In this document: in pieces, positions 6,378 to 48,612 of the stretch
Numbering within the stretch: position 1 is the first letter of the stretch
Layout: the number at the start of each line of letters is the position of its first letter
NCBI GenBank assembly: GCA_013204155.1
Contig: JABMOK010000186.1
Coordinates: forward strand, 16,210-80,209
Source: Pseudohongiella sp.
GTDB lineage: Bacteria > Pseudomonadota > Gammaproteobacteria > Pseudomonadales > Pseudohongiellaceae
Direction of reading: 5' to 3'
Length of the DNA stretch: 64,000 nt
The notes under the pieces: model-generated
Database searches by the model: none
Told to the model about the DNA's origin: nothing
Seen by the model: the letters and a program-made list of their open reading frames with translations, nothing else
Translations under genes and position numbers: made by a program

Positions 6378-6411
6378 TCAAGTTTCCTTTTCTGTTCTGC
6401 AGGCTCTGTTG

Positions 6412-6489
6412 TTGTCAATCAATGTTGTCAATCAATGTTGTCAATCAGAGTTGTTAATCAGGGTCGCTAACCAGGGTCGCTACTCAGAG
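6412..6489. repeat. Tandem repeat, 13 bp x6
   Basis: Six head-to-tail degenerate copies of TTGTCAATCAATG drifting to TCGCTAACCAGGG, beginning 35 bp upstream of the amidohydrolase start, in the 361 bp divergent gap (6378-6738) before the symporter. A separate 18-bp doublet lies at 6664. No confident promoter was seen in the rest of the gap. Unlike the other arrays this one is not next to a stop codon. Confidence 0.85.
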
Positions 6490-8280: not shown

Positions 8281-8328
8281 AAATGGGTCGGAGTCTGAGA
8301 TATCCCATCTTCTAGATGAAATATTCTC

Positions 8329-8643
8329 GGCGCCTACCCTCTACCCTGTCTTTCTTGCGAGCACACGCGCGGCGATTTTTTCAGCGCTGCGGAACCACAT
8401 TCCTGCAGAAGGATCTTCGAAGCTGAGAAGATTCATGCTGCTTCTTAGGAAGGAGACTACGGACAGTGGGTTCTCCTCCGGCTCAAGGATTCCTCCAGCG
8501 ACATCTCGGAATCCGAATAGAAATACGCTTTTACTTACCGCCAGAGATTCAGTCTAACGTGTTCTGTCCTCGCTTGACCTGAAAAAATAGCCACGCTAAA
8601 ACGTGCTCTGATTGCAAGTAAGACAGGGTAGAGGGCAGGCGCC
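8329..8643 (+). repeat. Hairpin A: 56/65-nt bulged inverted repeat with conserved loop module
   Basis: Left arm 8329-8384 pairs with right arm 8579-8643. The outer stem (GGCGCC, then CCCTCTACCCTGTCTT) is interrupted on the right arm by a TGATT bulge, then comes a 6-bp GAGCAC/GTGCTC stem, an AAAAC bulge, and a 19-20 bp inner stem ending CAG/CTG. The 194-nt loop starts CGCTGCGGAAC and ends CCTCGCTTGAC. Its first 101 nt (8385-8485) differ at only 8 positions from 48215-48315. The element is bounded by GGCGCCT at 8329-8335 and 8638-8644, possibly a 7-bp target duplication. Confidence 0.82.
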
Positions 8644-8761
8644 TTACTTCAGTAATGGCATCAGGATTGCAGATTCAAGAGCGAGAACTACGCATAGATA
8701 AGAGTGGTTTGTGCTTTTGGGCTTATAGAAATGCAAAGACCAGCCGTGTTCACTTGATTGA

Positions 8762-8928
8762 GCGGAGTCGAGTCTGTGAGTCCCTTTGCGCACAATCAGG
8801 CCATGTTTCTATTCTTCCATTTAGCCAGATTAAGCGAGGACTGTCCGAGCCTTAGGCGAGTTCCGCAGCGCTGGCTAAATGGAAGAATAGATGGCCGTGC
8901 GCAAAGGGACTCACAGACTTGGCTTCGC
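8762..8928 (+). repeat. Hairpin B: 67/58-nt bulged inverted repeat, short loop
   Basis: Left arm 8762-8828 pairs with right arm 8871-8928. Two bulges occur on the left arm only (AATCA and GTTT) and account for the 9-nt length difference. The stem order is a ~32-bp outer stem, a 6-bp GGCCAT/ATGGCC stem, and a 20-bp inner stem ending GCCAG/CTGGC. The 42-nt loop (8829-8870) keeps both loop ends found in the other hairpins but lacks most of the internal module. Confidence 0.88.
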
Positions 8929-48043: not shown

Positions 48044-48087
48044 TCAGAGTATAAACTATTTCTTCTGATCAATAGTTTTTACTCTGA
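48044..48087. repeat. 17-bp inverted repeat with TCAGAGT ends
   Basis: TCAGAGTATAAACTATT and AATAGTTTTTACTCTGA pair with one mismatch around a 10-nt loop. The outer end reads GGGGTCAGAGT on the minus strand. It abuts the left end of the MITE-like element at 48092. REP-like hairpins starting GGGGTCAGAGTA are familiar to me in gammaproteobacterial genomes, but I cannot check that here. Confidence 0.75.
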
Positions 48088-48091
48088 CCCC

Positions 48092-48500
48092 GAGGTATCC
48101 CCACAAAATTCCAATGGTTCGCGTTAGATTTTATTAGGGTTTTATGTGGCCTGCACGCGAAGCCGAGTCGGTGAGTCTTTTTGCGCACGGCCATCTATCC
48201 TTCAATTTAACCAGCGCTGCGGAACTACATTCCTCCAGAAAGATCTTCGAAGCTGAGAAGATTCATGTTGCTTTTTAGGAAAGAGACTACGGACAGTTGG
48301 TTCTCCTTCGGCTCAGACAGTCCTCGCTTAATCTGGCTAAATTGAAGGATAGAAACATGGCCTGATTGTGCGCAAAGAGACTCACCGACTCGACTCCACT
48401 CAATTAAGTGAACACGGCTGGTCTTTTTATTTCTATAAGTGTTCCCATTTTCAATCCGCAATTCAGGCGCCGAGAAAATATTATTTCGTGGGGATATCTC
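48092..48500 (-). mobile_element. MITE-like repeat element, copy 2, with hairpin C
   Basis: About 409 bp without genes. Terminal inverted repeats: GAGGTATCCCCACAAAATT (48092-48110) and the reverse complement of 48482-48500, 16 of 19 positions equal. Inside is hairpin C: arms 48157-48214 and 48333-48399, bulges AAAC and TGATT on the right arm, and a 118-nt loop (48215-48332). It is oriented opposite to copy 1. Its empty GGCGCCT site (48465-48471) corresponds to where hairpin A is found in copy 1. It lies between the LLM gene and the trp promoter. Confidence 0.85.
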
Positions 48501-48612
48501 AGACTCGGATCCTTTCTCACTGGCCCTTATCAATGCCTAGTCTATGATGGCCTGATAGATGCCGCTACGAAGTTTCGCATAGTCATCCAGGCCAGTGACC
48601 GGGATAAAGCGG

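Follow-up and report, generated by a model that had tools for sequence, protein, structure and literature searches.

A family of long bulged hairpins with variable stems and conserved bulges and loop, apparently undescribed, in Pseudohongiella and its relatives

Closest described systems

REPINs are dispersed, intergenic, non-coding repeats that fold as single strands and show compensatory changes in their paired spacer (PMC3116915). The attC sites of integrons conserve little stem sequence, are recognised as a folded bottom strand and carry two extrahelical features on the same side, for which a separation of six nucleotides is preferred (PMC3053210). Hairpin A, in the window (the whole 64-kb stretch of DNA that was analysed), shares traits with both. 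Like the REPINs and BIMEs of TnpA-REP systems, hairpins of its kind are dispersed, would fold as single strands and show compensated pairing. However, in REPINs the REP ends are conserved and the middle varies, whereas in the present hairpins it is the arms that vary, around a conserved loop and conserved bulges, an exchange that rules out identity with an ordinary REPIN. REPIN-like inverted REP ends are present in a subfamily of genome G091, but none was seen, on inspection of flanks by eye, at the window copies or at most others. Of the linked Y1 or RAYT transposase that was sought, the gene was found and the linkage was not: a RAYT gene (PF01797) is present in all 12 hairpin-bearing genomes tested, a sample of hairpin-bearing genomes only, so that no association is shown, and no hairpin lies beside the RAYT genes at the loci examined.

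The likeness to attC consists of the free stems, bottom-strand folding (here suggested by the mismatch asymmetry) and two same-side features six apart. Nevertheless, the R boxes of attC (RYYYAAC / GTTRRRY) occur on neither strand in any of 150 copies, which rules out attC identity, and the present hairpins differ in their 4-5 nt bulges and long conserved loop, with no cassette arrays seen. Integron integrase genes above the curated cut-off occur in three of ten hairpin-bearing genomes, at

G000:C48:4662-5600, integron integrase gene
G091:C1:192811-193752, integron integrase gene
G133:C79:1501-2445, integron integrase gene

and there is none in the complete genome G352, which has 19 hairpin copies, or in G204. 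The fetched flanks of the three genes contain no hairpin. No hairpin adjoins the examined RAYT or integron integrase genes, and this was counted against the reading preferred below. A third likeness is to MITEs, since in the window's genome terminal repeats (TCTGAGATATCC) bound the two-hairpin unit, which probably also has a 7-bp target duplication; elsewhere, hairpins without the TCTGAGATATCC ends are found, so that a MITE is only one carrier.

Over seven hairpin loci, Rfam gave nothing above the gathering threshold, and the window region returned only microRNA and sRNA matches far below the gathering score. A few searches of the open-access literature found no description of such hairpins. 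The original prediction likewise named no family of this form, and A apparently belongs to an undescribed family of long bulged hairpins.

Anatomy of the window hairpins

The geometry first described for A (outer stem, TGATT, 6-bp stem, AAAAC, inner stem ending CAG/CTG, loop) was confirmed in every anatomical particular. The features below were read from the sequence, those of the loop of A also from copy comparison; R2 is a covariance model described in the next section.

8329-8643, + strand, hairpin A (H2 type), whole; R2 match 8337-8635, E=1.5e-19
8329-8358 and 8614-8643, + strand, outer arms of A (30 nt)
8359-8364 (GAGCAC) and 8603-8608 (GTGCTC), + strand, 6-bp stem of A
8365-8384 and 8579-8597, + strand, inner arms of A, ending CAG/CTG
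8385-8578, + strand, loop of A, starting with CGCTGCGGAAC at 8385 and ending with CCTCGCTTGAC
8598-8602, + strand, bulge AAAAC of A
8609-8613, + strand, bulge TGATT of A
8598-8613, + strand, the two bulges of A with the intervening 6-bp stem arm GTGCTC, at the family-wide spacing
8762-8928, - strand, hairpin B (H1 type), short loop; R2 E=2e-35
8794-8798 (AATCA) and 8805-8808 (GTTT), bulges of B as read on the + strand
48161-48395, + strand, hairpin C (H1 type); R2 E=3e-30
48161-48188 and 48368-48395, + strand, outer arms of C
48353-48356 (AAAC) and 48363-48367 (TGATT), + strand, bulges of C

Against dinucleotide shuffles, A folds with a z score of -7.5 and B with one of -13. As had been claimed, A has stems unrelated in sequence to those of B and C, and its loop matches that of C at 92.3% over 104 nt, in agreement with the 93 matches in 101 nt first reported for the loop start. 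Between the conserved CGCTGCGGAAC start and CCTCGCTTGAC end of the A loop, optional modules are inserted. Two such modules, of about 80 and 100 nt, are found in H1 or H2 loops (window hairpins A and C, and loci L061-L064), as if swapped between hairpins.

Distribution of the family

Further members, on whose existence the original prediction had staked its reading of A, were found with two covariance models. The first, R1, was seeded with six short-loop hairpins, A excluded; of the 137 family genomes searched with it, 31 (5 of 8 genera) gave a match and 106 gave none. The second, R2, built from copies in other genomes and containing no window sequence, recovered B, C and A with no other match in the 64 kb and, when seven candidates were scored per genome, detected the family in 32 of the order's 392 genomes, which represent 8 families and 13 of 142 genera. 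Copy numbers depend on this setting; with 150 candidates scored, the fuller counts were about 31 copies in G091, 19 in G352, about 16 in G443, 7 in G426, 3 in G204 and 9 in the source genome. The family is patchily distributed, with a maximum of about 31 copies in one complete genome and a presence in at least eight bacterial families. At one locus of G443 (L303, 2629-3155), three copies stand in tandem with a 190-nt period.

Repeats defined by structure are nearly invisible to ordinary repeat finders, as shown by a DNA search with a 706-nt copy that matched none of 57 relatives, against the dozens of genomes reached by covariance models. The plasmids and phages searched gave no match. Two pattern scans were set aside: one for the exact architecture, with 13 matches in GTDB genomes and 2 in viral contigs, was judged to have returned chance matches, of which some 10 would be expected, and none showed a matching far arm; a looser loop pattern found a single match in viral contigs, inside seemingly coding sequence.

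Free stems, fixed bulges and loop

In the six-hairpin seed, 33 of the 48 pairs show changes in both partners, pairing holds in 97.9% of cells, and a one-sided standard change is found in none; shifting the partner by one to three columns, as a control, lowers pairing to 33-44%. About 147 copies were then considered, comprising 122 distinct aligned copies and 25 from other families and genomes. Among the 122, Watson-Crick pairs make up 92.1%, and at 31 of the 48 paired positions the commonest pair type does not exceed 60%. Over all of the approximately 147 copies, all four Watson-Crick pairs occur at most stem positions, yet 92% of cells are paired, and the 25 more distant copies display the same anatomy and the same covariation picture.

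The unpaired parts behave differently, with identity in the bulges and loop mostly 0.83-0.99 as against 0.3-0.5 at most stem positions (122 copies). Conservation is high throughout the bulge AARC (A.94, A.83, R, C.98), the bulge TGATT (T.96, G.92, A.97, T.84, T.95) and the loop core GCGGAACTCG (mostly.8-.99), and in 108 of the 109 copies that could be scored, six bases separate the two bulges. The loop holds a further covarying mini-stem (GG/TCC, GC/TGC). The proposal that bulges, spacing and loop are fixed while stems are free, and hence that a structure is recognised, is strongly supported by this covariation and by the searches of 137 family and 392 order genomes.

Strand asymmetry of mismatches

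With no strand bias in mutation, the neutral expectation is that A.C equals G.T, C.T equals A.G and C.C equals G.G. On the top (aligned) strand, the mismatches number 254 A.C to 89 G.T, 137 C.T to 21 A.G and 32 C.C to 8 G.G; A.A and T.T are even (18 and 20). Raw counts are inflated by the relatedness of copies; the per-genome excess is 29:3 (4 ties, p=2.6e-6) and 30:1 (p=3e-8), and of 32 informative genomes, 29 have mismatches that fit folding of the complementary strand. The mismatches tolerated on that strand are the stable G.T, G.A and G.G, and its fold thus appears to be what selection acts on. An alignment artefact is unlikely, because training of the model used the other strand, on which any preference of the model would be expected to be for G.T. 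Mutation bias can be dismissed only in part as a source of the asymmetry, with G>A and T>C both feeding the A.C class.

The wobble asymmetry is no larger than those of G.A and G.G, which would suit DNA better than RNA; the mismatch pattern looks somewhat more DNA-like than RNA-like, and the working molecule would be single-strand DNA rather than RNA. Two points were counted against a single-strand DNA element. Firstly, G.T/U and G.A are tolerated by RNA and DNA hairpins alike. Secondly, the hairpins are oriented along the direction of replication in the complete genome G352 (15:3), but not in G091 (16:15).

Proposed nature of the element

At a probability of roughly 0.5, the hairpins are a non-autonomous, structure-recognised single-strand DNA element, often lying inside other palindromic repeats. 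A would be a member of an order-wide dispersed family of non-autonomous repeats, with a working form consisting of one DNA strand, namely the one opposite the top strand of the alignment (the - strand in the case of A), folded as a long hairpin. A putative enzyme would read the unpaired features, namely the same-side bulges AATCA and GYTT of that strand, six bp apart, together with the structured loop, and stem sequence would be irrelevant provided that pairing holds. The unit would be copied together with its stems, which would later drift by compensated changes, and the hosts of the hairpin would differ by lineage, being a TIR element in the window's genome and, in G091, inverted REPs that belong to a RAYT-type system. 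What the sequences show is the family with its anatomy, its covariation and strand asymmetry, its enrichment between convergent genes and its presence at many loci; that the molecule is single-strand DNA and not RNA, that a protein recognises it and that it is self-mobile are inferences. It is also possible, more tentatively, that the hairpins constitute a new class of single-strand DNA mobile element or recombination site, spread through one order and hitch-hiking in palindromic repeats, with an enzyme that reads the two bulges and the loop and ignores the stems. If an enzyme does read these folds, they would join integrons as a natural case of recombination in which the stems of the site are free, and would be a good model for studying single-strand DNA recognition.

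The best surviving alternative, although unlikely, is a multicopy structured non-coding RNA, read from the complementary strand, whose bulges and loop bind a protein. The prevalence of G.U-compatible mismatches on that strand and the covarying mini-stem in the loop are consistent with such an RNA, and even then a large structured family would be missing from Rfam. However, wobbles make up only about 3.6% of complementary-strand pairs (254/6979) and the G.A and G.G asymmetries are equally strong, no conserved promoter-like or terminator-like flank was seen (by eye, T-tracts included), Rfam has no match, and the distribution is patchy, the copy number reaching about 31 in one genome.

Copying, evolution and genomic setting

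Close pairs of copies differ mainly by uncompensated single changes and distant pairs mainly by compensated ones, for example 18 compensated to 1 single. The units of a young subfamily in G091, of which eight near-identical copies at different loci were aligned, have inverted REP-like repeats of 26-27 bp at their ends; there are about 93 of these repeats in the genome, some on both sides of a Y1 transposase gene. The young copies carry their parent's stems, so that stems are inherited on copying, and their capture from the target at insertion is ruled out. At L307, L308 and L310 (G352/G333), much like the REP-bounded copies of G091, the hairpins lie at the centre of another palindromic repeat (CATCCCGACgaagcg..GAGGGATCT).

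In one syntenic block, several species have hairpins at the same sites, with largely unrelated stems and differing orientation but with pairing kept; in one species the hairpin is reduced to its stem base. These same-site hairpins may stem from in-place evolution or from hot-spot turnover, and the pairing kept at shared sites, which is not easily explained by pure selection for mobility, counts against the preferred reading. Simple, approximate ORF calls place 69 of the 122 copies between convergent genes, 36 between tandem genes and 9 between divergent ones. The first impression that hairpins follow a same-strand gene was not borne out (19:17 in tandem contexts, no bias), which argues against a role within the gene's mRNA.

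The convergent setting and the occupation of some sites in several species would fit a host function in convergent intergenic regions, such as a two-way terminator, an insulator or a nucleoid-protein site. This is nevertheless quite improbable, given that 106 of 137 family genomes have no match, that only the stem base is left at the same site in another species, that C lies between two divergent genes and that a terminator needs neither loop nor bulges. The least credible alternative is that the hairpins have no function and persist in safe convergent intergenic regions, while DNA-level correction, through template switching or arm-to-arm conversion, preserves the complementarity of their arms: quasipalindrome correction is a known process, many source-genome copies are internally deleted as long palindromes are, and orientation differs among syntenic copies, but correction should erase 4-5 nt bulges and not conserve their sequence, 6-nt spacing and loop, predicts no strand asymmetry of mismatches, and sits poorly with changes that are uncompensated in close pairs and compensated only in more distant ones.

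Carrier element in the source genome

A had been presented as a free-standing third hairpin, and flank comparison corrects this point. The sequence to the left of A, reverse-complemented, is the one found to the right of C and, judged from the copies compared, A and B are one composite repeat element with two hairpins in opposite orientation, in the order terminal repeat TCTGAGATATCC, hairpin H2 (A), linker and hairpin H1 (B, inverted). C is a copy of the composite without the H2 (A) half. A simple inversion of B, named at the outset as an origin of A that would overturn the idea, is not what happened, the H1- and H2-type stems each recurring elsewhere. The parts of the carrier, from copy comparison and, for the C element, from sequence, are

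8294-8305, + strand, terminal inverted repeat TCTGAGATATCC of the A+B element, A side
8644-8761, no strand assigned, A-B linker, common to other two-hairpin copies
48089-48503, no strand assigned, whole C element, between degenerate terminal repeats

The C element is flanked by CTCTGAC (48082-48088) and CTCGGAT (48504-48510), which look like a decayed 7-bp target duplication. At L124, a TIR-TIR remnant, the site is reduced to TCTGAGATATCTCAGA between two perfect copies of CTCTAAG (7 bp), which suggests a 7-bp target duplication; it is perfect at this one remnant and, judged by eye, decayed at other loci.

The source genome has about 17 loci of the two-hairpin type once contigs broken at hairpins are paired (L064+L078, L065+L069, L066+L076), and at many of them one or both hairpins have been lost through internal deletion. 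A perfect 88-bp palindrome without bulges in L064 (end of G000:C173) was rejected as a contig-end fold-back artefact, because its true continuation appears to be contig C19 (L078, G000:C19 end). Contigs besides C173 and C19 likewise break at hairpins and can be paired (C25+C132, C136+C183). No autonomous partner with matching terminal repeats was found in the source genome, and apparent gene-bearing versions between hairpin pairs were discarded, the intervening genes resembling ordinary chromosomal genes by context. Within the window, a REP-like hairpin CTCAGAGTATAAACTATTTCTTCTGATCAATAGTTTTTACTCTGACCCC (48044-48092) directly abuts the C element, and tandem 13-bp repeats TGTTGTCAATCAA occupy 6410-6461.
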